A stretch of DNA of 64,000 nt. Origin: Butyrivibrio sp. (GTDB lineage Bacteria > Bacillota > Clostridia > Lachnospirales > Lachnospiraceae). Shown in pieces: positions 46,255 to 62,880 of the stretch; the stretch's first letter is position 1, and the number at the start of each line of letters is the position of its first letter. The position numbers were made by a program, and so were the translations under genes. The notes under the pieces were generated by a model. The model worked only from the letters and a program-made list of their open reading frames with translations, had not been told where the DNA came from and did no database searches. Location of the stretch: the NCBI GenBank assembly GCA_016291375.1, contig JAEEXE010000001.1:1-64000 (forward strand). Direction: 5' to 3'.

Positions 46255-48201
46255 TTATACAAACTTGCTGCCTTTGTGTCTCTTGATCTCGAAGCTTCCG
46301 CCTGATGAGATCGTCTCTTTTACGAAGGCATTCATGATATCGTTGTAGCCGCGCTTATCATCCTTGCTGTAACCGGGCTGAAGCGAATCAAATTCACCGT
46401 TTTCATAAGTAACCGCGAGCGCATTGCTCTCATTGGTCTTGATAATGATAAGAGTCTTGGCTCCGCTGCTTACAACGGTATATTCATAATCATCTGTATC
46501 GAGGAAGCTCTCTATATCGGTAACGGCGCCTGCAACGGCATCCGCAAGATCTGTCGAAGAAGCTTGCGCTGTTTCTTCAAATGCAGCTTCTTCTGCAACA
46601 GGTTCTGTGAGAGCATCTACCTCTGCGTTTAATATATCGTCAAGGCTCCGGCCGGTGCTTTCTGCCACAGCAGCGTCATTCTCTGCTGCCGCCATTGCCG
46701 CCATAAGGGCATCCATCTCGGCTGCATCTGCAGTTGCTGCCTCAGGAGCAATTGCTTCCGGCGCTCCGGCCTCAGGTGCTGCCACATCAGGCATCTGTAT
46801 TTCTGCAGCTCCGGCGTCAGGTGCAATCGCTTCTGCCGCTGTCTCCTGCGCAACAACGTCTCCGAGCGAAGGCTCCTCTAATGCAGGCTCTTCTATTGCG
46901 GGCTCTTCAAGAACAGGCTCCTCGATATCGGGAATTTCGATCGTTTCGGGTGTAGGCTCCGCAAGTGCCTCTGCCGCGATATCAGGCATCTCTGCGGGTG
47001 CTTCTGCTGCAATATCAGGCATTGCTTCCGGCGTAGGCTCTTCTGCCGGCATTGCAGCTTCCGATGCAGCTACGAGCGCTTCAAGCTCAGCTGCCTGTTC
47101 TTCTGTTGTCAATGCTGATCCAAGTACTTCCAACTCAGATGCCTGCTCATCTGTTGCCGGTGCGGCGCCCAGATCAAGCGCGTCGTCCGCCATAGCGGAA
47201 ATATCAATATCGGGTGCAGCCTCTGCAGGTGCTGCATCCGGTGCGAGCTCAGGCATTGCCTGTGCAAGTGCTTCATTTGCAACATCGCTTGCTCCCATTG
47301 CAGCAAGCATAGCATCTATATCTGTTGCACCGCCGTCTGCGGGTGCTTCTGCCGAAATATCAGGTGCTGCATTCGCAGCAGGTTCTTCCATCGCAGGAAT
47401 CTCTGCCGTAGGTTCTGTGATTGCATCCGATGAAGGCTCTGCAATAGCTTCCGCAGGCATTTCTTCCGCAGGAATATCAGCTGCCGCAGGTTCAGCTTCT
47501 GCTGCCGCAGCAGCCATAAGGGCATCAACATCGGAAGCTGTCTCGGCATTTGCCATTGCGGCGAGCATAGCATCTACATCTACAGGCGCAGCCTCAGGTG
47601 CAGGTTCCTCTGCAGGAATCTCCGCTCCGGTAGCTTCACTTCCGCTTGCAGCCAACATAGCATCAATATCAACAGCTTCCGCCGCCGGTTCAGCCACTGC
47701 TTCGCCTGCCATAGCTGCCATTGCCGCCATTGCATCGGCTTCCGCCGTTTCAGCGGGACTTGCGGGGATCTCGGCGTCAGGCGCTGCCTCCGCTGCCGCT
47801 GTTTTAGCCTTTTCTTCGGCTAATATCTCTTCAAGATCCGGAATATCCGGCTCTGCCACTGTATCCATTTCAGGTGTGGCTTCCGCCACCGGTTCTGCCG
47901 GCACTTCCGGTGCCGCTTCGGGGATAACCTCTGCCGCCGCTTCGGGAACTGCCTCTGCTGCTACTTCGGGCACAGCTTCTGCCTCCGGAGCAGGCGCAGC
48001 CGCTTTCTTACGGGTTCTCTTTGGCTTGGGAGCCTCTTCCACAGGTGCTTCAGGCACAGTTTCTTCAACAGCTTCCGCCTCTGCGCTCGCAGCAGCTGCC
48101 GCAGCATTCTCTTCAGCTTTCATAGCCGCCAAAAGATCGTCAACATTCGCAGTAGATAAATCCTGTCCGTTAAGAATATCCTGAGTGCTCATGCCTTCCA
48201 T
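46255..48201 (-). CDS. Ala/Glu/Pro-rich protein with repeated D-x-D-A-[ML]-[ML]-A-A motif and small C-terminal domain
   Basis: A 648-residue, very acidic, low-complexity protein. About eight short amphipathic motifs stand out: NVDDLLAAMKAEE (19-31), DLEEILAEE (122-130), DIDAMLAAS (178-186), DVDAMLAAMANAE (208-220), DVDALMAAAAAE (224-235), DIDAMLAAM (294-302), EMDALMAAMAAAE (495-507) and SLDDILNAEVDAL (519-531). They resemble the CheY-binding N-terminal peptide of FliM/FliY (S-x-x-E-I-D-A-L-L). A basic patch KPKRTRKK lies at 59-66. The last 100 residues (from about 551) are ordinary in composition and form a small unknown domain. No signal or membrane helix. GGAG precedes the ATG. Function unknown; a cytoplasmic multivalent scaffold is my inference. 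Confidence 0.8.
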   Translation of the reverse strand: MEGMSTQDILNGQDLSTANVDDLLAAMKAEENAAAAAASAEAEAVEETVPEAPVEEAPKPKRTRKKAAAPAPEAEAVPEVAAEAVPEAAAEVIPEAAPEVPAEPVAEATPEMDTVAEPDIPDLEEILAEEKAKTAAAEAAPDAEIPASPAETAEADAMAAMAAMAGEAVAEPAAEAVDIDAMLAASGSEATGAEIPAEEPAPEAAPVDVDAMLAAMANAETASDVDALMAAAAAEAEPAAADIPAEEMPAEAIAEPSSDAITEPTAEIPAMEEPAANAAPDISAEAPADGGATDIDAMLAAMGASDVANEALAQAMPELAPDAAPAEAAPDIDISAMADDALDLGAAPATDEQASELEVLGSALTTEEQAAELEALVAASEAAMPAEEPTPEAMPDIAAEAPAEMPDIAAEALAEPTPETIEIPDIEEPVLEEPAIEEPALEEPSLGDVVAQETAAEAIAPDAGAAEIQMPDVAAPEAGAPEAIAPEAATADAAEMDALMAAMAAAENDAAVAESTGRSLDDILNAEVDALTEPVAEEAAFEETAQASSTDLADAVAGAVTDIESFLDTDDYEYTVVSSGAKTLIIIKTNESNALAVTYENGEFDSLQPGYSKDDKRGYNDIMNAFVKETISSGGSFEIKRHKGSKFV

Positions 48202-48389
48202 ATAAAGTCTCCTTTCGAACCGATAAACCCTTCAAATATATTACTGTCGCTATACTATGACATAGGGCTCAAAAATCTCCAATATCATCATAGAATAGCA
48301 ACATATTTTTCACTATAAACCGTCTACTAATATTATCTAATATTTCATACCGAATTAACAGTAAATTTTTTATGAATTCAGAAATATAA

Positions 48390-48428
48390 AAGGTTTGGAC
48401 TTTGGGACTGTGCCCATAGTTCAAACCT
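48390..48428 (-). terminator. Terminator of the LanM-like/two-component operon
   Basis: AGGTTTGGACTTTGGG pairs with CCCATAGTTCAAACCT with one mismatch and a G-T pair around a 7-base loop. The minus strand then has TTTTATATTTC. It begins 27 bases past the kinase stop. Confidence 0.75.
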
Positions 48429-48455
48429 CTTGTCCTTTATAAAATGATATAGATG

Positions 48456-49724
48456 TCACAATATCAGCTCTACAACAAAGTTTCCGTCTTCGACTTTGAT
48501 GTCCATGTGACCATCATACTTATTAATGACTGTCTTTACGTTATCAAGGCCGTGTCCGTGGAGTTCTTTATCTTCTTTGGTCGTTACAAGCTTACCATTT
48601 TCATATTTAAGTTCCTTGTGGATCGGGTTCTTTTGCAGGATACACAAAACATCGTTGTATGGATAGCACACAAGTCTTATCTCATCGCCGCTTTCGCAGG
48701 CCTCGATCGCATTGTTCATAATATTGGAAAAGATAATACAAAGCTCATAATCATCCGCTTTATTTTCCTTAAGAAGCGCGACCTGATACGTGAATGTAAT
48801 TCCTTTCTCCTCGCACATATCGGCACACCGTCCCAGTATTCCGTCAACAGCAACATTTCCGGAAATAATAGCCTTGCTGTATTTTTTCGAATCTTCGACA
48901 AGACCGCCGCAATACTTCTTAAGACCTTCCGTATCTCCGGCCTCTGCAAGGGAACTTAGCGCATAGATGTGTGCCTTAAAATCATGTCTGCATGATCTTA
49001 GCTTTTTCTCACTCTCCAAAATCGCATCAATCTGCTCTTTTTGCGAATTTAATGTATTTTTTTGGCATTCCGAAACAAATCTTTCATGCATTCGCGATTT
49101 TTCCAAATAGATTAAGTACATTACAAGTATATAAAAAATAAAACTCATGATAGTAACCGAGTTTACATACACCTCGGTTTTAATTCTACTTCCATTTGAA
49201 AACATGGATTCTTTTTCGGCAAATGCAATTCCCACCAACAGGGTGCAAATATTCAAAAGAACTATCTGCATTGCACTAAGCTCTAAGCCATGCGTATTAA
49301 TTCTAGTTTTGTACACAAAATACAAGAGTCCGCACACAACAAAAACTTCAAGAAATCTGATGGAATAATTATCTAACAAGATTCTCTGAAAAATAGCATT
49401 GGCAGTATCAATCAAAGTATTAACTATTGATGATATTGTCGTAGGAATACCCAAAATCGGAAAATAGAGCCCTAACCACTTAAGAGTTTTTCCTTTTAAT
49501 AAAAAAGGAATAATAGCACCGGTCAGCAATGTGATTACAGCAGTAGTGATAAAGCCTCCTGTTATAGCTGATATTCCTTCAAGCAACACGCTTACGCCGA
49601 CTAGAATAAGTATAGAAAAAAAAGCGTTTTTCTTGTATCGCGCTCCAAATATCAATCTGTAAATTATCAAATATATGCATAGGTCAAAAAACACAAATAA
49701 ACATTCCAATAAATAATTTACCAT
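48456..49724 (-). CDS. AgrC-like membrane sensor histidine kinase (GHKL, HPK10 type)
   Basis: A 422-residue kinase with six or seven helices in the first 200 residues and no large external domain, the layout used for peptide or membrane-stress sensing. The phosphoacceptor His is in CRHDFKAHIYALSSLAEAGD (about residue 240); the N box is SNIMNNAIEACES and the G box GHGLDNVK. The start overlaps the end of the response regulator gene by seven bases, so the two are coupled. Last gene of the operon that begins with the LanM-like protein. No AgrB or recognisable AgrD is present, so the signal is unknown. Confidence 0.9.
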   Translation of the reverse strand: MVNYLLECLFVFFDLCIYLIIYRLIFGARYKKNAFFSILILVGVSVLLEGISAITGGFITTAVITLLTGAIIPFLLKGKTLKWLGLYFPILGIPTTISSIVNTLIDTANAIFQRILLDNYSIRFLEVFVVCGLLYFVYKTRINTHGLELSAMQIVLLNICTLLVGIAFAEKESMFSNGSRIKTEVYVNSVTIMSFIFYILVMYLIYLEKSRMHERFVSECQKNTLNSQKEQIDAILESEKKLRSCRHDFKAHIYALSSLAEAGDTEGLKKYCGGLVEDSKKYSKAIISGNVAVDGILGRCADMCEEKGITFTYQVALLKENKADDYELCIIFSNIMNNAIEACESGDEIRLVCYPYNDVLCILQKNPIHKELKYENGKLVTTKEDKELHGHGLDNVKTVINKYDGHMDIKVEDGNFVVELIL

Positions 49725-50440
49725 CCCATACGTCCTTTAACTTTAGCAAGTACATAATCATCATATTTATTCTTTACATCTTCAGAAAAACTTCTTCCAA
49801 GCGGAATAGCCTCTTCATTATCGATGCATATCTCATTGTATTTGATCCTTTGTACATGAGATAAGTTAACTATATACGACCTATGGATACGAACAAATCT
49901 ATTTTCGAGCTTTTTTAAAAAAGATGTCACTCCCATTCTTTCCGAAGCAGTTTCTTTTCCGTTTGACAATTTGGCAACAAGATAGTTTCCGTCTGATTTG
50001 ATATAAAGAATATCATCATAGTTATAAACCTTATCACCAAAGGTAATGCCTTCCTTATTGCTGTATTCCTTATATATATTCCTAATCCACTCGCACACTA
50101 GCTTTTTATCAAGCGGCTTATTCATAAAGCCGACTACTCTAAGTCCAAAAGCCTGTTGCATTGCTTCGGTGTGACTTGTTATAAAAATAATTTTTTCGAC
50201 AGCGGAATTTTTTTGTAGACTGTTTTTTATCTCAATACCTGTTTTACCGGGCATCTCGACATCAAGAAACAGAATATTTATAGAGACATCCCCTGAAGAC
50301 AGCTTTTTATCAAGCTCCTCTCCGTTTTTGCATAAGATAAAATTATACTGCGCCCCGGATACAGAAAAAAATTCATTCACACAATCTTGGATGAATTCTC
50401 TGATCCTCTCATCATCATCGCAAATAGCTATTGTGAACAT
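49718..50440 (-). CDS. LytTR-family response regulator (AgrA-like)
   Basis: A 240-residue regulator: receiver domain with ICDDDERIREF and phospho-Asp in LFLDVEMPGKTG (about residue 58), then a LytTR DNA-binding domain with FVRIHRSYIVNLSHVQRI near residue 190. LytTR proteins bind paired 9-base direct repeats about one turn upstream of the -35; such repeats (TTGTCGTTC, twice) occur at both 52876 and 56067, so this regulator probably activates its own operon and the ABC operon. GGGGAGAG precedes the ATG. Confidence 0.93.
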   Translation of the reverse strand: MFTIAICDDDERIREFIQDCVNEFFSVSGAQYNFILCKNGEELDKKLSSGDVSINILFLDVEMPGKTGIEIKNSLQKNSAVEKIIFITSHTEAMQQAFGLRVVGFMNKPLDKKLVCEWIRNIYKEYSNKEGITFGDKVYNYDDILYIKSDGNYLVAKLSNGKETASERMGVTSFLKKLENRFVRIHRSYIVNLSHVQRIKYNEICIDNEEAIPLGRSFSEDVKNKYDDYVLAKVKGRMGW

Positions 50441-50498
50441 ATTACTCTCTCCCCCACTATAAGTGTTTTATCATTCCTCTTTGTCCATAATAGCACAT

Positions 50499-50522
50499 CA
50501 GGAGCCGAATAATCGACTCCTG
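50499..50522 (-). other. Stable hairpin ahead of the response regulator gene
   Basis: CAGGAG-TCGA-TTAT-TCGG-CTCCTG on the minus strand makes a 10-bp stem with a 4-base loop, about 60 bases before the response regulator ATG. The T run lies before, not after, the stem, so it is not a standard terminator. It may be a processing or stability element. Confidence 0.4.
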
Positions 50523-50567
50523 CGCAAAAAAAATTCCTCATAAGAAAACGCTCAAACTCATATCTCA

Positions 50568-50636
50568 CTAGTAAATAAGTTCCCCCCATGAAAAAAGACA
50601 CATTGACATGATACAACTCATAATCTGATATCCCAT
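50568..50636 (-). CDS. Candidate 22-residue peptide
   Basis: An ATG at 50636 has the best ribosome site of this stretch (AAGGAGG, eight bases upstream). The frame codes 22 residues beginning MGYQIMSCIMSMCLFSWG and stops at 50568. It is hydrophobic, with two Cys and several Met, and lies between the 100-residue membrane protein and the response regulator, where a signal peptide would be expected. A competing 86-residue frame over the same bases has no ribosome site. This is a weak call. Confidence 0.25.
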   Translation of the reverse strand: MGYQIMSCIMSMCLFSWGELIY

Positions 50637-50663
50637 TCTTCGTTCCTCCTTCCATCGTTTGCT

Positions 50664-50966
50664 TTATTGAAAGTAACTTATCTGGCATAAAAGCCAGGCT
50701 ATTACCAATACAAGATTTAATCCCGCCAATACCTTTTCCGGCGGCTCCATATCCAAAATAAACCTTGAATTATTATTTTTATCTTCCCGAAAAAGAATTC
50801 TGTAAATAAACATCAGCGAAAAGGCTGATAATATAACATAATTCGATATATAAAATCCTTCTGTCAAACCTTCGTTTCTGTTGAATGCTGACAATAGTAC
50901 CGCCACGATCAAAGCAAAAGTAAATGCCAGTCTCTGGACTGTAATGCCGTGTTTTATAGAATCCAT
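50664..50966 (-). CDS. Small membrane protein in the LanM-like operon
   Basis: A 100-residue protein with three predicted helices: LAFTFALIVAVLLSAF, GFYISNYVILSAFSLMFIYR and a C-terminal VLAGLNLVLVIAWLLCQI, with a charged loop (REDKNNNSRF) between the second and third. Its start overlaps the end of the LanM-like gene by 13 bases, so translation is coupled. It is too short for AgrB and lacks that family's His/Cys protease residues. I do not recognise it; an immunity or anchoring role is possible by context. Confidence 0.7.
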   Translation of the reverse strand: MDSIKHGITVQRLAFTFALIVAVLLSAFNRNEGLTEGFYISNYVILSAFSLMFIYRILFREDKNNNSRFILDMEPPEKVLAGLNLVLVIAWLLCQISYFQ

Positions 50967-52573
50967 TCATTCACCACACTTTCTATATTTTTGTCATTAT
51001 CAAAGTAAGCTAAGCTGCAGTGATCGTAGTCAAATGCACTCCTTATAAAATCAATCTGTTTTTCTTTATCTTCTTTAGAAAAATCATCGAGCTTATTTAT
51101 TATGCATTCTAACGGAGATTCGTAGCGTCTTTTAAGCGCCCTGTCCCATTCCTGGGTATAGACTGTTCTGTCCTTTAATAGCGTTGTGAAATAAGGCACA
51201 TCACCTCTCATCAACTGCTGTATCTCATGCTTAAGCGAATACTCATCTATACTGCTGTCTGTAAAAACTAATTTTATATAATCCTGCGTAGTCTCTTTAT
51301 CCTTTAAAAGCTCAGGTGAATTAAGCTTTTTTAGCATTTGAGAATAAAATTCGCGGTTTCTTAAACTTATTCTTATCTTGGTATTTTCATAATCTTTTAA
51401 AAGCTTATATATAGCAGGGAGGCTATCCATGATATTGTCATAGCCTTCATCAAACCCTTCTATAACATCATCAACATACTCCCATACGGGAACGCTTTCG
51501 CCGGACAACTTCGGTAAATGCGTATGTTTTCCTTTGTATTTTCTGACTTCCCATCGCTCTTTTGCCTTGGACGTGAACTCATCTGTTATATCACTCTCGG
51601 AACGAGCAACAAATATCACATCTCCCAAAGCGTTGTGCTCTATTATATCTTTGTTTTCCCTGCTGTAATGCATAGGAATGATCGCTGTCTTAAATACAGA
51701 TCTATCAAAAAGCTTTTTCCCTTTGGTCATCTTTTTTGAAAAAAGATTGGTCGAAGATAATGTTTCCGCATCGATAAGCACCGGATATTTGCCAACGGCG
51801 TATACTTTTCTGTCATCTATATCAACAGCGTTCATCAAATACGCCAAAGCAAGCATAAATCCCGCATTCTTATAAAACTCTCTTATATCACTTTCAGTAT
51901 TACATCTGTAGTTAGTGACATGCTCGGCCCAGAAATATTTATTTCCCTGAAGCATATTCAAAATCTTGTAATTATCATCACCGCTTACAAGCTTTATCAG
52001 TTTGCCATACAGCTCAAATATTCTTCCGCTCTCAGGTTTGTAGATGACATAGTCTTCATTTATCTTGCATCTGACCGTGCATTTCCCGCTGTTTCTTTTA
52101 TCTCCGAGAAATTCCACTTCCTGAAGAACGTATTCACCGGCTCTTTTAAGAAGTCTCTTGGTCCTTAGCTTATCCAGATCGTTCAAGTATCTTTTTATCA
52201 CTTCCAAGAGGAAAGCATAGCCAAGATCCATGGTACGATGAATTCTTTCGTGCCAAAGCTTGTATCTGGCAATGAATCTCTCATAGTAGTACTTGTCAAA
52301 AAAGCGATCTATGTACTGTTTATACTGTGAATCGGGATAAAGATCCCAGAATTCAAAAACGCCTTGTCTCTGCTCGTTAATATCAGCTATCAACAGCGTC
52401 TGACTTATATCTCTTAATTCCCCCTTGAGATATTCCTTAAACTGCTTTTTGATCTTCCTTACATTTATGAGTTCTCTTTCGGCTTCTTCATAGCCTCTTG
52501 TCAGTACGGATAAGTCCTTTTCGAAATCCCTAAGCTTCTCTTTTACCAAAGATTCATATATGGATTCAAACAT
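50954..52573 (-). CDS. Stand-alone LanM-type dehydratase (DUF4135-like), degenerate, no cyclase domain
   Basis: About 539 residues. The middle matches class II lanthipeptide synthetase LanM dehydratase domains: YVIYKPESGRIFELYGKLIK, YFWAEHV, FYKNAGFMLALAYLMNAVDI, YPVLIDAETL and MRGDVPYFTTLL near the end. LanM proteins are about 1,000 residues with a C-terminal LanC cyclase; that is missing here. Key positions differ from the consensus as I know it: GDxH is GDKR (157-160), D-x-H-x-x-N is DIDDRK (251-256) and RpT is RNR (405-407), while YKP Lys (179) and LID Asp (268) remain. The start at 52573 is chosen for AAGGAG; a TTG further up is unlikely. No precursor peptide is obvious. Confidence 0.8.
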   Translation of the reverse strand: MFESIYESLVKEKLRDFEKDLSVLTRGYEEAERELINVRKIKKQFKEYLKGELRDISQTLLIADINEQRQGVFEFWDLYPDSQYKQYIDRFFDKYYYERFIARYKLWHERIHRTMDLGYAFLLEVIKRYLNDLDKLRTKRLLKRAGEYVLQEVEFLGDKRNSGKCTVRCKINEDYVIYKPESGRIFELYGKLIKLVSGDDNYKILNMLQGNKYFWAEHVTNYRCNTESDIREFYKNAGFMLALAYLMNAVDIDDRKVYAVGKYPVLIDAETLSSTNLFSKKMTKGKKLFDRSVFKTAIIPMHYSRENKDIIEHNALGDVIFVARSESDITDEFTSKAKERWEVRKYKGKHTHLPKLSGESVPVWEYVDDVIEGFDEGYDNIMDSLPAIYKLLKDYENTKIRISLRNREFYSQMLKKLNSPELLKDKETTQDYIKLVFTDSSIDEYSLKHEIQQLMRGDVPYFTTLLKDRTVYTQEWDRALKRRYESPLECIINKLDDFSKEDKEKQIDFIRSAFDYDHCSLAYFDNDKNIESVVNEWIL

Positions 52574-52632
52574 ATACTTCTCCTTGGTAGTACTCTTTTC
52601 CTTCAACGTCTTCCCTCACCTTTAGAATAAGA

Positions 52633-52656
52633 CCGGAGTATCACGACATACTCCGG
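52633..52656 (-). terminator. Attenuator-like hairpin before the LanM-like gene
   Basis: CCGGAGTAT and ATACTCCGG form a perfect 9-bp stem with a 6-base loop, followed on the minus strand by the T-rich TCTTATTCTA. It sits 60 bases before the ATG, inside the transcript, so it could limit read-through as seen between lanA and lanM genes. Confidence 0.6.
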
Positions 52657-52834
52657 CCTGCTTTTGGCATAACATTATGGATAAAAAATAATAATCAGGT
52701 TATAGTAGTTTTGGTTTTATCCACTTATATCAATAATGATGTTAGAGACTTTGTTATTCATGTACACTTAATTGTTCATTGTGTTTTGACTTCCCCCATA
52801 ATGTTATGGTAAGGCGTTAGACCCTTACACCCCA

Positions 52835-52904
52835 AGCTTAATGTGTCCGAAAACGTTTTTCAACATCAATGGGACGAACGACAATTTTTTGTTATGAACG
52901 ACAA
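52835..52904 (-). promoter_or_regulatory. LytTR-type promoter B (LanM-like operon)
   Basis: Minus strand: direct repeats TTGTCGTTC (52896-52904 and 52876-52884, 20-base period), then TTGAAA (52858-52863), a 17-base spacer and TAAGCT (52835-52840). The spacer also carries the AAAACGTTTT palindrome (52850-52859). The architecture is that of promoters activated by AgrA/ComE-like LytTR regulators. Confidence 0.75.
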
Positions 52905-52942
52905 GTTTTTTAACGATAAACATTAAATATCGAATTGGAAAT

Positions 52943-53656
52943 TCAAATCATTCCTTCCATTTTCATAGGCATCCTCGTAATAATTTTTCTAACCATAAAC
53001 TCACCAATTACAAAAACAACAACCATATATACAATGCTCACAGGTTTAAGCCCTCTGTAAAAAAGGGCATGTTCAAAGTTATACCAAGGATTTATCCAAG
53101 AAAATCCCAGCGGATTAAGTACACTTCCAAAAACCGTTGCCACAACCGATATAAGCATTGATATCATCTGACTTCTGGTAACCATTATAAGTATTGCTAC
53201 AAAATTGACCAGTGTAAAAACATTGAGCATTGAAAGAACTACCCACTCCCATTCATTCAAGAGCACAAAAAACGGATTACCTCCTTTTATTCCCACAAAA
53301 ACAAGCGTAATGGCAGTTGCCAGAAAAAAATAAAAAGCATTAATTATATAGTTTGTCAAAAGCTTCATCTTATAGCTCTTTTTCACGGATATATCAAAGA
53401 AAAAAGAATTGACTATACCGCAATTAACTTCCTCAATAAAAAAGCTTCTGGCAACAACAACAGAAATGATTATAGGGAAAAAGAAGCTCGCAAAAAGATC
53501 CATTGCAGTAACATAAATAATATCTGCCGTAATATCATCAACAAGAAGTCCCAGATATCCTTGAAACACAACGGAAAGTATTGTGATAAAAAGTCCGAAC
53601 AGAAGTATTCCCGCTCCCGTTATTTTCTTTAATTCAAATCTTATATGCTCCATCAT
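52943..53656 (-). CDS. ABC-2 type transporter permease (LanE/G or BcrB-like)
   Basis: A 237-residue membrane protein with six predicted helices, beginning FELKKITGAGILLFGLFITI. It matches the general layout of ABC-2 permeases that work with the BcrA/LanF-type ATPase two genes upstream. Five bases separate it from the preceding permease. Last gene of the second LytTR-controlled operon. The sequence is AT-rich compared with flanking metabolic genes. By context it probably helps expel or resist a membrane-active peptide. Confidence 0.82.
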   Translation of the reverse strand: MMEHIRFELKKITGAGILLFGLFITILSVVFQGYLGLLVDDITADIIYVTAMDLFASFFFPIIISVVVARSFFIEEVNCGIVNSFFFDISVKKSYKMKLLTNYIINAFYFFLATAITLVFVGIKGGNPFFVLLNEWEWVVLSMLNVFTLVNFVAILIMVTRSQMISMLISVVATVFGSVLNPLGFSWINPWYNFEHALFYRGLKPVSIVYMVVVFVIGEFMVRKIITRMPMKMEGMI

Positions 53657-53661
53657 TACCT

Positions 53662-54384
53662 CTACGAATAAAACTTCCTACCACACACATACACTAACGC
53701 AACACTGATAAAAATGTTAAAAGCAGTTATTCCAGCAATCATTCCAGCATTAAAAACATTACCCGATTCAAATAAATACACGCTCGCATACTGCGAAAAA
53801 TATCTAATAAATCTCAACCTTTCCGCCATAATTCCCATCAGATACATAATAAGAACCCCGAATATAACCGCCATTGGGAAACTCTTTATATAGAGCTGCA
53901 TGCAAAACTGAAGCGCATATCCAAAAACATTGGTAAAAAGAATAAATACCAATGCCGCATACCACATCCTACAGTCAGGCTCCATTCGCAAAAAATATTT
54001 TGTAATTGGGTAATATAATGCAACTGTCAGCACTCCGTATATGCTCTGATACAGCAAAAAAACCACATATTTTGAAATAACCAGTTTCTTTCCGTCAAAG
54101 AGTTTGGTCATCAAAAGATCCCACGTATCATTTATATATTCTTTTGTCAGTATGTTATATCCTAGGAACATAGAACAAAAAAGTCCGACTATAAGCCCCA
54201 ATCCGCAAAAGAAATACATGTTCACGCCTTCTTTTCCATAATGAGCATAGACGTTTGGATTCTCTCCAAGCCTAAACACTGCATAAGAAAGCACGCAACA
54301 TAGGATTGAAAATCCGATAACGCCAAAAATGTTTTTTTTGTCCGTTCTTAATTTTTTTAGTTCTTCAACAACAAGGCATCTCAT
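53662..54384 (-). CDS. ABC-2 type transporter permease, second subunit
   Basis: A 240-residue permease with six predicted helices. The N-terminus is CLVVEELKKLRTDKKNIFGV, an ABC-2 start, and the last helix reads NIFISVALVYVCGRKFYS. Its start overlaps the ATPase stop by four bases (ATGA type), so translation is coupled. With the next gene it forms the two-permease set seen in LanFEG immunity transporters. Substrate not known. Confidence 0.82.
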   Translation of the reverse strand: MRCLVVEELKKLRTDKKNIFGVIGFSILCCVLSYAVFRLGENPNVYAHYGKEGVNMYFFCGLGLIVGLFCSMFLGYNILTKEYINDTWDLLMTKLFDGKKLVISKYVVFLLYQSIYGVLTVALYYPITKYFLRMEPDCRMWYAALVFILFTNVFGYALQFCMQLYIKSFPMAVIFGVLIMYLMGIMAERLRFIRYFSQYASVYLFESGNVFNAGMIAGITAFNIFISVALVYVCGRKFYS

Positions 54385-55283
54385 ATATTGTCTCTTTCTT
54401 TTTCAGTAAGAGTAAGGTATATGCTCTCAAGATTATTGCTCGGCGAAATTTCAAATACCTCTACATCTTTTTTTACAAGTTCTTTTACAATCCCGGGGAT
54501 AATGGATTTTGCTGTCTCAATATAAAAAGCGTCTTTTTTTCTGCTATAGCTGACTCCAATCGCCTTCAGTACTGCAGCAGTATTTCCAGCATCGTTCGTT
54601 CTAAGGCAATACTCAAGTCCTTCTGTTGCATAGAGCTCATCTACTGTTCCTTCAAAGATTTTGCTTCCTCTATCAATTATGCAGATTCTGTCGGAAAGCT
54701 TTTCTATTTCGGCAATATTATGACTTGAAATAAATATGGTACATCCTTCATTGTGTGCCATCTCTTCAAGCATTTGTCTGATTTCAAAGATTCCCTTAGG
54801 ATCCAGGCCATTTGTAGGTTCGTCCAGGATAAGCACTTGGGGATTATTCAAAAAAGCTATCGCCAGTCCCAGCCTTTGCTTCATACCGAAAGAAAAAGAC
54901 GAAACCTTTTTGTTTCCTGTGTGATCAAGTCTTACAAGCTTAAGAACTCTGTCCACTTCGCCAAGCGGTTTTCCCAGTATTTTCTGCAGATATAAAAGAT
55001 TCTCCCTCGCTGAAAGGTTCGGATAATAATTAGGCTTGCTTATAAAGACACCGACATTTTGCATAATACTGCTATCCAAATGTTTCATCTCTTTTCCATC
55101 GTACTTGACAGTTCCGCAGTCAGCCTTAAGAAGCCCCACCATCATCTTCATGGTTGTGGTCTTTCCCGCTCCGTTCGCCCCAATAAACCCATAAATCTTT
55201 CCTGCAGGGATTGTTAGTGAAATATTATTTACTGCAATATATTCCCCGAATTTTTTGCTCAAATGTTCTACTGTGATTTCCAT
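54381..55283 (-). CDS. ABC transporter ATPase (BcrA/LanF-like)
   Basis: A 300-residue ATPase: Walker A GANGAGKTTTMKMMVG (about residues 37-52), Q-loop region VGVFISKPNYYPNLSARENL, signature SFGMKQRLG, Walker B VLILDEPTNGLDPKGI and H-loop SSHNIAEIE. The C-terminal 80 residues are the variable domain of bacitracin/lantibiotic-type ATPases. It is followed by two ABC-2 permeases. The signature is SFGMK rather than LSGGQ, normal for this subfamily. Likely function is immunity to or export of a membrane-active peptide. Confidence 0.9.
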   Translation of the reverse strand: MEITVEHLSKKFGEYIAVNNISLTIPAGKIYGFIGANGAGKTTTMKMMVGLLKADCGTVKYDGKEMKHLDSSIMQNVGVFISKPNYYPNLSARENLLYLQKILGKPLGEVDRVLKLVRLDHTGNKKVSSFSFGMKQRLGLAIAFLNNPQVLILDEPTNGLDPKGIFEIRQMLEEMAHNEGCTIFISSHNIAEIEKLSDRICIIDRGSKIFEGTVDELYATEGLEYCLRTNDAGNTAAVLKAIGVSYSRKKDAFYIETAKSIIPGIVKELVKKDVEVFEISPSNNLESIYLTLTEKERDNI

Positions 55284-55291
55284 ATTTTCCC

Positions 55292-55525
55292 TTATCTTGT
55301 AATCTTAATGCTTGTTCCCAGAATCATGACAATAATAACTATCACCTTAAAAACAAAAAAGCCCTTGGAATTACCATCTTTTGAAAATAGATTTGACGTC
55401 ATAGGAAGCGCTAAGATACATCCAAGCACCATAATAATTCCTCTTATATAATCCTTGTCAATAAAATCAAACACTCCAAGAAATAAACAAAAAGCTGCCA
55501 GTACCCATGAAATTATAGTTTGCAT
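55292..55525 (-). CDS. Small membrane protein, unknown function
   Basis: A 77-residue protein starting MQTIISWVLAAFCLFLGVFD, with two or three helices (also YIRGIIMVLGCILALPMTSN and a C-terminal VFKVIVIIVMILGTSI). The ATG at 55525 has GGAG upstream; a longer open frame with no ribosome site is rejected. Eight bases separate its stop from the ABC ATPase start, and it follows the other small membrane protein by 22 bases. Possibly an accessory immunity protein; no family recognised. Confidence 0.7.
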   Translation of the reverse strand: MQTIISWVLAAFCLFLGVFDFIDKDYIRGIIMVLGCILALPMTSNLFSKDGNSKGFFVFKVIVIIVMILGTSIKITR

Positions 55526-55547
55526 TTTTTCTCTCCTTGCTAAAAAT

Positions 55548-55976
55548 TTATATTTTTTCTTTTTCAAATTTTTCTAAACCTTCTTGAAATGGCACAGAAA
55601 TCATCATCATAGCGCCGGTTAACACGGCTATGCCCACATAAATTCTTTTCATATCAAGCCCAAGCATCCATAATGCTGTAATAATAAAAATAAATCCGAG
55701 CACTAATTGATATATCTTCATAATTCCTTTTTTACTTTTTTTCAGTCTAATTATAAAAAAGTAAATATCTAACACAAAAACAAGGATAAAATCGATGATA
55801 AGGAGTACTTCTCCTATTGGGTTCTTACCAAAAAAAGCCAAAAATATATTATATGTCCCCAAGATGCAGGAACAAACTTTGATTACCCTATTTTCCCATA
55901 TAATATTAAATACCTTCCATTTTGTTAAAGCGAATATAATCCAGGAACATCCTACCACTACTAATAAATTTTTCAT
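55548..55976 (-). CDS. Membrane protein, unknown function, first gene of the ABC operon
   Basis: A 142-residue protein with four predicted helices: KNLLVVVGCSWIIFALT, VCSCILGTYNIFLAFF, VLLIIDFILVFVLDIYFFII and two short hydrophobic stretches near the C-terminus, which ends in a charged tail (EGLEKFEKEKI). ATG at 55976 with GGGAG nine bases before it; a GTG two codons upstream is too close to that site. It is the first gene after LytTR-type promoter A. I cannot assign a family. Confidence 0.7.
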   Translation of the reverse strand: MKNLLVVVGCSWIIFALTKWKVFNIIWENRVIKVCSCILGTYNIFLAFFGKNPIGEVLLIIDFILVFVLDIYFFIIRLKKSKKGIMKIYQLVLGFIFIITALWMLGLDMKRIYVGIAVLTGAMMMISVPFQEGLEKFEKEKI

Positions 55977-56025
55977 TTCCACACTCCCTAATGTTATGGT
56001 AATACTATGTTTGTCTTACAAGCAA

Positions 56026-56095
56026 AGCTTACTGTGTCCGAAAACGTTTTTCAATAACAATGGGATGAACGACAAGTTTTTGTTATGAACAACGG
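56026..56095 (-). promoter_or_regulatory. LytTR-type promoter A (ABC operon), near-copy of promoter B
   Basis: Minus strand: CCGTTGTTC (56087-56095, decayed) and TTGTCGTTC (56067-56075), then TTGAAA (56049-56054), 17 bases and TAAGCT (56026-56031). Sequence and spacing match promoter B at 52835-52904 almost base for base, including the AAAACGTTTT palindrome. Confidence 0.75.
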
Positions 56096-56113
56096 GTTTT
56101 CGTATCATTTAGT

Positions 56114-56149
56114 AAAAAAAGAGCTCTGAGGAATAATCCTCCGAGCTCT
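56114..56149 (-). terminator. Terminator of pfp
   Basis: AGAGCTC-GAGGA and TCCTC-GAGCTCT form a 12-bp stem with one mismatch and a 4-base loop, followed on the minus strand by seven T (A at 56114-56119 and next base). Confidence 0.85.
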
Positions 56150-56187
56150 CCACTTAACTCAATCCGTAATTCAATTTACCGGTAATA

Positions 56188-57453
56188 TCACACAGCCTCA
56201 GCGATAACAAGGTGTCTGGGAAGTCCTCCTGAAATGATCGGCATCATCTCGCCGAAGATAAGAGGACGGGCATACTTGTCAAACTGCTCTGTAAGGCCGC
56301 ATCCGTCGGGTGTTATCCACTCGTTGGGGATCATCTTCTCGCAGTTGGCGATAGAGTGTATGTCGTAGGTTCCGTAAGTGCAGATGTAAGGGCAATCACT
56401 GCTCCACTCTTCCTTACCGAAGTCTTGATACATAGCTCTCTTCATGATGATCATCTTGCCGGTCTCACCCGCAACGGCAGCATTAAGAGCTTCATAGCCG
56501 CACTGATAAGCCTCTCTTACGTCTGTAAGTGATGCCATGTGAGAAGCTGCTCTCTGAAGAGTGCTGAGCTCAACGGTTCTTGTACGTAAGCCAAGCTCTG
56601 CACTTAATTTGTCGGCAAGTACCTTACAAGCTGCGCTCATCTGCTTATGACCGAATGTATCCGTTGCAACTTTGCCTCCGAGCTCGCACACATATGTGCC
56701 GTCGGCAAGTTTGATTCCCTCTGAAATTACAATAAGTACGGGCTTACCTTTGGAAGAGAGTTCCTTCATCTGCTCCATGAACTTGTCCATGTCAAAAGGT
56801 CTCTCCGGAAGAAAGATTGCATCGGGTCCCGAGCAATCATCAGATTTGGATAAAGATGCCGCTGCCGCAAGCCATCCCGCATTTCTTCCCATGATCTCTA
56901 CGATAACGGTTGCAGGATTTCTTTTGTCAGCTGCCTGATTGTCTCTGATCAGCTCTTTTACGCTGGTCGCTATATATTTGGCTGCAGAACCAAAGCCGGG
57001 GCAATGATCGGTGATAGGAAGATCATTGTCTATTGTCTTGGGTATGCCGATAAAACGCTGGGATTTACCCTTTTCTTTTGCATAATCCGACAACTGCATG
57101 ATTGTATCCATTGAATCGTTGCCACCGATATAGAAAACCATATCGATATTGTTCTTCTCAAGAACGTCGAAGATCTTGATGTAGTCAGCTTCATTCTTAC
57201 TTGCTACAGGAAGCTTGTATCTGCATGTACCGAGAACCGCTGCAGGCGTTCTCTTAAGCAGTTCCACATTGGTCGTATCCGACAAATAATTATCCAGATC
57301 AACGATGTGTCCGTTAATAAGACCTTCAATACCATGGAGCATACCGAATACCTTTGGTGCTCCGAGTTCCTTGGCGCGTACATAAGCGCCGGCCACAGAC
57401 GCATTGATAGCGGCCGTAGGCCCACCTGACTGTCCGATTATGACGTTATTCAT
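56188..57453 (-). CDS. pfp: 6-phosphofructokinase, pyrophosphate type
   Basis: A 421-residue phosphofructokinase that phosphorylates fructose-6-phosphate. It begins NNVIIGQSGGPTAAINASVA. The phosphate-donor site reads YIGGNDSMDT, with Asn-Asp instead of the ATP enzyme's Gly-Asp-Gly, and the next motif is PKTIDND; both are marks of PPi-dependent enzymes. MGRNAGWLAAA follows. Length (421) also fits PPi-PFK better than the 320-residue ATP form. Single gene with GGGAGGG before the ATG and a strong terminator. Cytoplasmic glycolysis. Confidence 0.9.
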   Translation of the reverse strand: MNNVIIGQSGGPTAAINASVAGAYVRAKELGAPKVFGMLHGIEGLINGHIVDLDNYLSDTTNVELLKRTPAAVLGTCRYKLPVASKNEADYIKIFDVLEKNNIDMVFYIGGNDSMDTIMQLSDYAKEKGKSQRFIGIPKTIDNDLPITDHCPGFGSAAKYIATSVKELIRDNQAADKRNPATVIVEIMGRNAGWLAAAASLSKSDDCSGPDAIFLPERPFDMDKFMEQMKELSSKGKPVLIVISEGIKLADGTYVCELGGKVATDTFGHKQMSAACKVLADKLSAELGLRTRTVELSTLQRAASHMASLTDVREAYQCGYEALNAAVAGETGKMIIMKRAMYQDFGKEEWSSDCPYICTYGTYDIHSIANCEKMIPNEWITPDGCGLTEQFDKYARPLIFGEMMPIISGGLPRHLVIAEAV

Positions 57454-61056: not shown

Positions 61057-62880
61057 TTACTCAACCGTAACAACCTTAGCGAGGTTTCTCGGCTTATCAA
61101 CGTCAAAGCCCTTGGTGTAGGATGTGTAATATGCGATGAGCTGCATTACAACAGCCGCAGGGAACGGCATGAACATATCGCTCATCTCGGGAAGGATAAA
61201 TGTGTCATCCTCGGGGATGTTCATATCCTTGTAGAGAGACTCTTTTGTAATAAGGATCATGCTGGCACCACGTGACTGCACCTCTCTGATATTGGAGTAT
61301 TCCTTTGATGCAAGTAAGCTCTGAGTTACAAGAGCAACTACAGGCACTCCGTCTGTGATAAGTGCGATCGTTCCGTGCTTAAGCTCACCTGAAGCATATG
61401 CCTCTGAATGAACATATGAGATCTCTTTTAATTTAAGCGATCCCTCAAGAAGAAGTGAGTAATCAAGGCCTCTACCGATCATGAATGCATTATCTGCGTG
61501 AAGGAATTTGTTTGTCATCTTCTTTACAAATTCTTTTTTCTCTAAGATCTCCTCGATAGCATCGGGAACAGTCATAAGTTCATCAAGGTAAGCCTTCATC
61601 TCTTCGGGCTCGAGCATACCGTTAAGTCTTGCGGTATGAATGGCAAGCAGATAGAATATCGAAATCTGGCTTGTAAATGCCTTGGTACTTGCAACCGCAA
61701 TCTCAGGACCTGCCTGTGTATAAATGCAATAATCACTGTTATCGGCAATTGTAGATCCCTTTACATTAACTATAGAAAGAACCTTGGCGCCTCTCTTCTT
61801 GGCATACTTGATAGCCTCGAGAGTATCGATTGTCTCACCTGACTGAGAAACGGCGATAACAAGAGTTCCGGGCTTGATAACAGGATTGGTATAAGTAAAT
61901 TCGGATGCAACCGCAACATCGGTGTGGATGTTAGCAAGTGTATGGAAGAGCTGCTGTCCGATAAGTCCCGCATGCATAGCAGTTCCGCAGGCGATAACGA
62001 TAATATTCTGATTTTCTCTGAAAAGAGAATGAGGAATACCCTCAGCTGTAAATGTTGTTCTTCCGTCTACTATATGAGGCATGATAGTGTCTCTGATAGC
62101 GTCGGGCTGCTCGTGGATCTCTTTTTCCATATAAAAAGCGTATCCGCCTTTTCCGCCACGACTGGTATCCCAGTCGATAGTCATAAGCTGAAGAGGTACC
62201 TCGTGCTTCTTCTCATCGTGTACCACGATACCCTTGGATGAAAGGCATGCGATGTGATACTCGGGAAGGAAAGCGTACTCCTTGGCGTGAACACCGAGAG
62301 CCGCAACGTCAGATGCAAGCATAGCGCCGTGCTCGGTCATGGCAACAACGATAGGGCTTACGTTACGAGCCGCATAGATCTTGCCGGGCTGATCCGCAAA
62401 AAGAACCGCAAAAGCAAATGTTCCCTTTAAAACGCTGATCGTTGATCTGATAGCCTTCTCTGCATCTCCGTCATAGAAGTGATCCATGATCGCAGCAGCT
62501 ACCTCTGTATCTGTCTCTGAAACGAGCTTATCCTTAAGATCGTACTCTTTAATAAGCTCCTTGTAGTTCTCTATGATTCCGTTATGTACGAGAGTTACTC
62601 TGCCCTGATTGTGAGGGTGAGCATTGGCATCGCTAACGCCGCCGTGAGTAGCCCAACGTGTATGTCCGATACCTGCGCATGCCTCTTCCGTATCTCCGGC
62701 AGTGATCTCTCTTAACTTGGATACACGGCCCGCAACCTTCTTAACGAAAGGCGCATCAGCCTCACCGGGGAAAAGAGCTATTCCCGCACTGTCATATCCT
62801 CTGTATTCCAAAAGTTCAAGTGAATCAAGAAGTATCTCTTTGGTACTTCTCTTACCAATATAACCGATAATTCCGCACAT
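61057..62880 (-). CDS. glmS: Glutamine-fructose-6-phosphate aminotransferase
   Basis: A 607-residue GlmS that makes glucosamine-6-phosphate from fructose-6-phosphate and glutamine for cell-wall amino sugars. Cys2 of MCGIIGYIGKR is the glutaminase nucleophile; HTRWATHGGV and HNGIIENY follow. Two SIS domains make the C-terminal half, with the sugar-site ACGTAMHAG, SQSGETIDT and the terminal PRNLAKVVTVE. The 109-base upstream region is too short for, and lacks, a glmS ribozyme. Works opposite to NagB encoded at 35905. Confidence 0.96.
   Translation of the reverse strand: MCGIIGYIGKRSTKEILLDSLELLEYRGYDSAGIALFPGEADAPFVKKVAGRVSKLREITAGDTEEACAGIGHTRWATHGGVSDANAHPHNQGRVTLVHNGIIENYKELIKEYDLKDKLVSETDTEVAAAIMDHFYDGDAEKAIRSTISVLKGTFAFAVLFADQPGKIYAARNVSPIVVAMTEHGAMLASDVAALGVHAKEYAFLPEYHIACLSSKGIVVHDEKKHEVPLQLMTIDWDTSRGGKGGYAFYMEKEIHEQPDAIRDTIMPHIVDGRTTFTAEGIPHSLFRENQNIIVIACGTAMHAGLIGQQLFHTLANIHTDVAVASEFTYTNPVIKPGTLVIAVSQSGETIDTLEAIKYAKKRGAKVLSIVNVKGSTIADNSDYCIYTQAGPEIAVASTKAFTSQISIFYLLAIHTARLNGMLEPEEMKAYLDELMTVPDAIEEILEKKEFVKKMTNKFLHADNAFMIGRGLDYSLLLEGSLKLKEISYVHSEAYASGELKHGTIALITDGVPVVALVTQSLLASKEYSNIREVQSRGASMILITKESLYKDMNIPEDDTFILPEMSDMFMPFPAAVVMQLIAYYTSYTKGFDVDKPRNLAKVVTVE

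Follow-up and report, generated by a model that had tools for sequence, protein, structure and literature searches.

An AT-rich block of two operons at 48456..56093 of the window, by which we mean the whole 64,000-nucleotide stretch of Butyrivibrio sp. DNA analysed here (contig C26 of draft genome G000, which is 88% complete and 4.7% contaminated), is probably an autoinducing peptide-pheromone (quorum-sensing) circuit that controls bacteriocin and immunity genes. The genes, their order and their strand agree with the original prediction, which had been made from the letters of this stretch and described two LytTR-controlled operons around a degenerate LanM domain; the AT-richness that it reported is also real, with 33-37% GC at 49-56 kb compared with 41-57% in the neighbouring kilobases and 38.7% and 39.9% at the other lowest points of the window. 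Every gene of the finding is carried by the minus strand. The signalling operon follows its promoter repeat in this order, with lengths in amino acids (aa) and the tiny third gene being a short open reading frame (ORF):

52876..52902, minus strand: LytTR-type direct repeat before the signalling operon, from a pattern search
50954..52606, minus strand: LanM dehydratase-domain-only protein, 550 aa from a TTG start, with altered catalytic residues
50664..50966, minus strand: 100-aa membrane protein, its gene beginning just before the LanM-like gene ends
50568..50636, minus strand: 22-aa hypervariable peptide gene, the proposed signal precursor, from its position and ribosome site
49718..50440, minus strand: AgrA-like LytTR response regulator (PF00072 and PF04397)
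48456..49724, minus strand: AgrC-like histidine kinase with six hydrophobic segments and a GHKL ATPase (PF14501)

Pfam matches substantiated the predicted LytTR regulator and GHKL kinase domains. Five orthologous loci were compared, namely the window, L023, L024 (G070:C16), L025 (G028) and L026 (G046), all of which occupy the same chromosomal site, flanked by the PFP gene and an Ala/Glu/Pro-rich gene. The overlap of the 100-aa and LanM-like genes is present in four of them and absent in L023; the named relatives at the locus are Butyrivibrio sp. INlla21 (99%) and X503 (87%).

In the circuit that we propose, the peptide gene, encoding 22-27 aa, would give rise to a secreted signal, which the AgrC-like kinase would sense through its polymorphic membrane domain before phosphorylating the LytTR regulator. 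The regulator would bind the direct repeats before its own operon, creating positive feedback, and those before accessory genes, which are the 144-aa, 91-aa and LanF-like ATP-binding cassette (ABC) genes in the window and a bacteriocin operon in a sister species. The LanM-like domain, very probably dead as a catalyst, most likely would act non-catalytically with the 100-aa membrane protein, the pair either handling or exporting the peptide or serving as a downstream effector.

Peptide and sensor are the parts of the operon that vary. When the window was aligned with the operon of G070, most 90-base windows were 90-100% identical in DNA sequence; identity sank to 38-63% across the tiny ORF and its downstream spacer, was 54-79% in the half of the kinase gene that encodes the sensor, and recovered to ~90-100% after the sensor half. 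Synonymous divergence (dS) between the two is 0.94 in the sensor compared with 0.03-0.17 in the other genes and the kinase half, so that the sensor block was exchanged and did not drift. G070 and G028 carry the same peptide type (one aa different) together with 99% identical sensors, and the N-terminal halves of their LanM-like genes differ at a dS of 1.46. Signal and sensor are therefore polymorphic together, in a small number of alleles, and this co-variation of a hypervariable small ORF with a kinase sensor domain supports the peptide sensing that the original prediction had offered as one possibility. Read at the level of sequence, such replacement of a peptide/sensor block is what marks pherotypes in peptide quorum sensing, and the tiny ORF and the kinase quite likely form a signal-receptor pair.

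The original prediction had seen no clear precursor and thereby overlooked the 22-aa ORF, which has a strong Shine-Dalgarno sequence and lies between the 100-aa gene and the regulator gene. A tiny ORF occupies the same place in all five loci, with products of 22 aa in the window, 27 aa in L024 and L025, 23 aa in L026 and 25 aa in L023; its ribosome site pairs with the 16S tail at -12.3 to -12.8 kcal/mol across the five loci, compared with -4.9 to -8.4 kcal/mol for the other four operon genes. Every peptide type contains at least two Ser and at least two Cys, and none of the four types has a double-glycine (GG) leader, the usual feature of Blp/GSP-type signals. An 86-aa frame that the mechanical ORF list gives at this position was discarded because it is interrupted by stops in the relatives. 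An AgrD-like ring pattern, [C/S]-x3-W followed by an acidic residue 1-2 places on, was also set aside; it had been drawn by eye from four sequences, which are too few.

The direct repeats that had been noted as near-identical at the two promoters were recovered at 52902-52876 and 56093-56067. A strict version of the repeat pattern yielded 13 sites in four genomes, compared with none for the reversed control. Five of the 13 precede the signalling operon itself, and five more stand before adjacent genes for membrane proteins of 128 aa or 144-146 aa, that of the ABC operon in the window among them. Two sites precede other exported-type genes (L043 and L045), and the last, in G070, precedes a bacteriocin operon with two double-glycine peptides, a 144-aa protein, a C39-type ABC transporter and an accessory protein (the last two named by eye); its 78-aa peptide matches PF10439 Bacteriocin_IIc above the cut-off (4.5e-10). 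Bacteriocin and immunity genes are thus the likely output of the circuit. The repeats at L045:8028 (-) and L043:7318 (-) stand before a 308/310-aa anchored-type protein and, in G028, a sugar-binding-type lipoprotein, and these exported-type genes are a possible target outside bacteriocins.

The second operon of the window lies upstream of the first (55982-52943, minus strand) and reads as follows:

56067..56093, minus strand: LytTR-type direct repeat before the ABC/immunity-type operon, from a pattern search
55548..55982, minus strand: 144-aa membrane protein with ~5 transmembrane segments, a putative immunity protein, 69% identical to its homologue in the G070 bacteriocin operon
55292..55567, minus strand: 91-aa small membrane protein, with a 45% identical 77-aa homologue at the same site in G049
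54381..55283, minus strand: BcrA/LanF-like ABC ATPase (PF00005, 1.5e-33)
53662..54384, minus strand: ABC-2 permease, below the Pfam cut-off
52943..53656, minus strand: second ABC-2 permease, below the Pfam cut-off

The 144-aa protein had no match in Pfam. The LanF-like naming of the ATPase stood in so far as the protein is closest to the lantibiotic-protection family TIGR03740 (3.2e-69); with 233 bits against a cut-off of 309.75, it is by sequence a relative of that family and not a member by the cut-off rule. Homologues of the permease at 53662..54384 (45-51% identical) are found in five other Butyrivibrio among the 79 genomes of the genus search, and no LytTR-like site was found beside any of the five. 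Three of these loci were read; in them a different small membrane protein precedes the ABC genes, and a helix-turn-helix gene is clear in one. Of the five orthologous loci a single one carries the ABC operon and, as no LytTR-like site was found beside its permease homologues elsewhere, the module seems to have been recruited to the circuit in the window.

A peptide-antibiotic-resistance-type ABC transporter behind a matching promoter is also what one would look for in a membrane-stress or antibiotic-sensing module, in which the kinase would sense a foreign antimicrobial and the tiny ORF would be a leader peptide or a toxin. Joint exchange of the tiny ORF and the sensor block is unexpected for the sensing of foreign drugs, however, as is the bacteriocin operon that follows such a site in G070, and the tiny ORF lies between genes with its own strong ribosome site; we regard such a module as unlikely.

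No protein of the locus matches AgrB, and each of the four genomes has a single AgrB, encoded on another contig. We considered this AgrB as an orphan partner of the tiny peptide and rejected the idea, since an AgrD model found agrD above its cut-off ~4 kb from agrB in all four genomes (among 14 control genomes none was above the cut-off and six were below it); the canonical agr system is therefore complete and separate. Its sensors are 48-77% and its kinase halves 88-95% identical among the four genomes, a contrast of the same kind as that in the signalling operon and one that favours the pheromone reading. The agr contig of G000 could belong to a contaminating species; with G000 left out, the values are 48-77% for the sensor, 92-95% for the kinase half and 73-84% for AgrB. 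The agr sensor types do not track the tiny peptide, as G070 and G028 share a peptide type and have agr sensors that are 48% identical.

Several observations weigh against a pheromone circuit of the kind proposed. Coding of the tiny ORF is backed by no conservation test: the peptide genes of the window and L026 have nine identical codons, two silent differences, eleven amino-acid-changing differences and different ends. As these codon differences give no support for selection, coding rests on position, ribosome site and shared residues, and the open frame by itself is weak evidence because the chance of 22 stop-free codons in random sequence of the same composition is 0.19. There are only four peptide types among the five loci, and none of them has an NCBIfam or Pfam match, though a match may be concealed by how short they are. 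No gene of the operon is recognisable as coding for a dedicated exporter or protease. Although their peptides differ, the window and G070 have LanM-like and 100-aa proteins with 99% identity, which speaks against a peptide-specific maturase and, as neither protein diverges with the peptide, also counts against the boldest reading, a distinct class of quorum sensing in which this pair would bring the peptide to or through the membrane; canonical AgrB, unlike these two proteins, is divergent (65-84%). Finally, a bacteriocin operon stands behind this promoter in only one of the four genomes.

The LanM-like protein is the most unusual part of the operon. When the 539-residue protein was searched as the original prediction had proposed, it matched DUF4135 (PF13575, 6.8e-58) and positions 5-520 of the 932 in the NCBIfam LanM model TIGR03897 (7.8e-77), scoring 258.9 bits, below the cut-off of 304. 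Because the match is confined to the dehydratase part of the model, the LanC domain is absent, as had been claimed. Translation likely starts at TTG 52606 (550 aa) and not at ATG 52573, since three orthologues have an ATG at or near the former position and L024 has the same TTG. Alignment to the solved LicM2 (5.1e-30) and to CylM (1.9e-19) allowed us to read off the equivalents of CylM D252, H254, K274, D347, H349, N352, D364, E366, R506 and T512, whose roles we take as given. Those of D252, K274, D364 and R506 are retained in all five loci. H254 is replaced by R in all five, H349 is lost in all five (D/N/S/C/Q), N352 is replaced by K in four of the five, and T512 is R/R/R/S/T and so lost in four; D347 is G in two loci and E366 is K in one. 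The altered active site is thus common to the five loci and, as the lost residues differ between them, it is by comparison of the sequences degenerate in different ways among loci.

An enzyme that still phosphorylates or dehydrates the Ser residues of the tiny peptide, to yield a lanthionine-type pheromone, would make use of the Ser and Cys of every peptide type and of the four retained residues. Set against the losses just described, presumably of working residues, and against the lack of a cyclase domain, this alternative is improbable, and the LanM-like protein is very likely an active dehydratase no longer. The suggestion of a kinase-only enzyme also lost support, as residues that we take to be needed for phosphorylation by CylM are lost or variable, and the suggestion of an immunity factor suits the neighbouring ABC/144-aa operon better. 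The ratio of nonsynonymous to synonymous divergence (dN/dS) of the LanM-like gene is 0.05-0.18 where it could be computed, dS being saturated for several distant pairs. It follows that the gene is not decaying: on this measure it encodes a pseudo-enzyme under purifying selection, and the fear that it might be a pseudogene of a single strain is removed by this ratio and by the five loci. As a side observation, the N-terminal halves of the LanM-like genes of G028 and G046 (L025 and L026) differ from that of the window at a dS of 1.4 or more, and the C-terminal half in G028 is nearly identical to that of the window; by this pattern, the N-terminal half is a second recombination block, unlinked to pherotype.

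It had also been asked whether a full lanA/lanM/lanT set lies elsewhere under the same type of promoter. All four genomes do have a set of precursor, lanM, lanT and protease genes, accompanied by a separate kinase and regulator. A scan of the surrounding 18-19 kb that allowed up to two mismatches gave no repeat site in three of the four (L022, L027 and L029), and G028 (L028) has one site with one mismatch, upstream of a lipoprotein-type gene and not of lanM; on these grounds the full cluster was rejected as a target of the circuit. In G000 the cluster (G000:C10, L022:1-19400) comprises LanM, a C39-type transporter, an S8-type protease, a LytTR/histidine kinase pair, a flavodoxin-like protein and several precursors with double-glycine or glycine-alanine (GG/GA) leaders, some without Cys (labels partly by eye), and related clusters occur in G028, G046 and G070.

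The presence of a full class II cluster in the same genomes, and the company of a LanM-like gene, a LanF-like ABC transporter and a LytTR pair, could suggest that the locus is the remnant of a decaying class II lantibiotic locus in which regulator and immunity genes were kept. This is very unlikely and already disfavoured: the LanM-like gene is under purifying selection across five loci and its product shares no more than 22-26% identity with the full LanM encoded in these genomes, lanA and lanT are absent from the locus, and the ABC operon is found in just the one locus.

A weightier alternative, which concerns the role of the LanM-like protein only, is that the protein is an output of the circuit and takes no part in making the signal. 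Its gene is the first behind the quorum-sensing-type promoter, its sequence does not track pherotype, and the LanM relative CA_C0082, which lacks catalytic residues, is Agr-controlled and was shown by genetics in Clostridium acetobutylicum to be dispensable for signal production (PMC10301443). However, the LanM-like gene is part of the signalling operon itself, shares an overlap with the 100-aa gene in all but one of the loci and precedes the peptide gene in an order recalling agrB-agrD, and the CA_C0082 proteins retain a degenerate cyclase region that is absent here. By analogy, the output role has somewhat less than an even chance; between handling the peptide and acting downstream more broadly, the chances are roughly even.

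The genus search (79 genomes) found the LanM-like protein, 80-100% identical, in four genomes, with a further copy of 60% identity on G000:C20. The other LanM-like matches in the genus are 21-30% identical and nearly all lie in frames of at least 874 aa. The one frame of 514 aa (G012:C28, L014:517-2061) is a stand-alone dehydratase of a different kind, which has by eye an intact-looking DxHxxN motif and IDLET; its gene follows that of a Cys-rich radical-SAM/SPASM-like protein, with a 62-aa GG-leader-like ORF nearby, and it is possibly an active dehydratase-only locus for a ribosomally synthesized and post-translationally modified peptide (RiPP). Samples of 397 genomes from the family and 391 from the class, taken evenly out of larger groups and overlapping the genus itself, yielded no further copy of the present form, short frames at G103:C23, G773:C151 and G610:C19 being uninspected, and LanM-like matches otherwise lay in frames of at least 766 aa. 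Outside the known loci, the 100-aa protein had only weak matches (E ~0.002-0.01) in the 397 family genomes. We rejected a duplication within G000 as the origin of the C20 copy, as C20 carries the same flanking genes as the window, among them glmS (61057-62880 in the window) and a PFP gene whose product is only 87% identical to that of the window. Given these flanking genes and the 4.7% contamination of the G000 draft, C20 most likely comes from another species in the G000 bin. No description of the locus was found in the open-access literature, and the main text of the Hungate1000 bacteriocin paper mentions neither INlla21 nor X503 (PMC13289728).

At the same chromosomal site in G049 (G049:C56, L095:1-10603) we observed the 77-aa homologue of the 91-aa protein, its gene behind a repeat with two mismatches, and a 40% identical regulator; none of the LanM-like protein, the 100-aa protein, the kinase or the peptide was seen at this site, which may be a decayed or listening-only version of the locus. 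Two different genes for Rpn-type nucleases (PD-(D/E)XK-like, named by eye) adjoin the signalling operon, one at L023:8911-9843 and the other in L024 between the PFP gene and the operon, and the slot upstream of the signalling operon looks like an exchange spot for accessory genes.

Two structured RNA elements accompany the signalling operon:

52631..52882, minus strand: conserved structured 5' leader of the signalling operon, from folding and comparison of the loci
50500..50521, minus strand: conserved 9-bp stem-loop between the peptide gene and the regulator gene, with one compensatory change

The leader contains two complementary arms of 13 nucleotides, CATAACATTATGG (52808-52796) and CCATAATGTTATG (52680-52668), followed by a terminator-like stem-loop (52658-52631). 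As the arms are unchanged in all five loci, they provide no covariation test. The folding z-score of the leader at 52600-52840 in the window is -2.86, better than 198 of 200 shuffles, and Rfam gave nothing up to E = 1 in 48200-56400. The leader could be released as a small regulatory RNA; that it is an analogue of RNAIII is only a guess. For the second element (50521-50500), the one compensatory change was found among four distinct sequences against a weak control, in which 103 of 500 shuffles reached the observed covariation.

Comparison with known systems places the locus between several of them and makes it considerably more informative than a degenerate lantibiotic locus. It resembles agr in combining, in one operon, a GHKL kinase with a polymorphic sensor, a LytTR regulator and a hypervariable small peptide; it is not agr, because AgrB and AgrD are absent from the locus and the peptide of 22-27 aa has neither the leader nor the tail of AgrD. 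With class II lanthipeptide loci it shares the DUF4135 domain and the LanF-like ATPase, and the missing cyclase (LanC) domain, LanA with its GG/GA leader and LanT, together with the altered catalytic residues, mean that it is not a locus for class II lanthipeptide synthesis. It is like Blp/GSP-type systems (e.g. gallocin, PMC8545106) in having a small peptide, a histidine kinase and a LytTR regulator with an operator before bacteriocin genes, and LytTR repeats do stand before bacteriocin or putative immunity genes, the bacteriocin operon in one of four genomes. Because there is no double-glycine signal it is not of the Blp type, from which it further differs in lacking a C39 exporter in the operon and in its additional LanM-like pseudo-enzyme.

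The closest precedent for the LanM-like protein is, by analogy, CA_C0082 of C. acetobutylicum, which is encoded beside and downstream of agrBDCA and is likewise a relative of LanM that lacks the catalytic residues (Humphreys et al. 2023, PMC10301443). In both cases, such a relative is tied to an AgrC/AgrA-type circuit and a quorum-sensing-type promoter. As described in that paper, the CA_C0082-type proteins measure 670-728 aa and retain a degenerate cyclase, with parts of the dehydratase missing, and a complete agr cluster adjoins in all but one of the species listed (PMC10301443); here, compared by description, the match runs the length of the dehydratase, there is no cyclase, and neither AgrB nor AgrD is encoded at the locus. 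If our reading is correct, the locus would be a second case, in another genus and with other domain content, of a LanM relative without catalytic residues in an Agr-type circuit, and the function of such pseudo-synthetases would become directly testable with a small genetic kit. Rumen Butyrivibrio would also gain a candidate pheromone language of at least four signal types, tied to bacteriocin/immunity-type genes and used alongside canonical agr.

We put forward only tentatively that this is a distinct class of peptide quorum sensing, with a precursor of 22-27 aa that has no AgrD, double-glycine or other known leader, a pseudo-LanM and a 100-aa protein that would replace AgrB or a C39 transporter at the membrane, and a pherotype switch by exchange of the peptide and sensor segments. 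Taken as a whole, and as far as sequence comparison can tell, the locus would function as peptide-pheromone two-component systems do, its output being bacteriocin and immunity genes.

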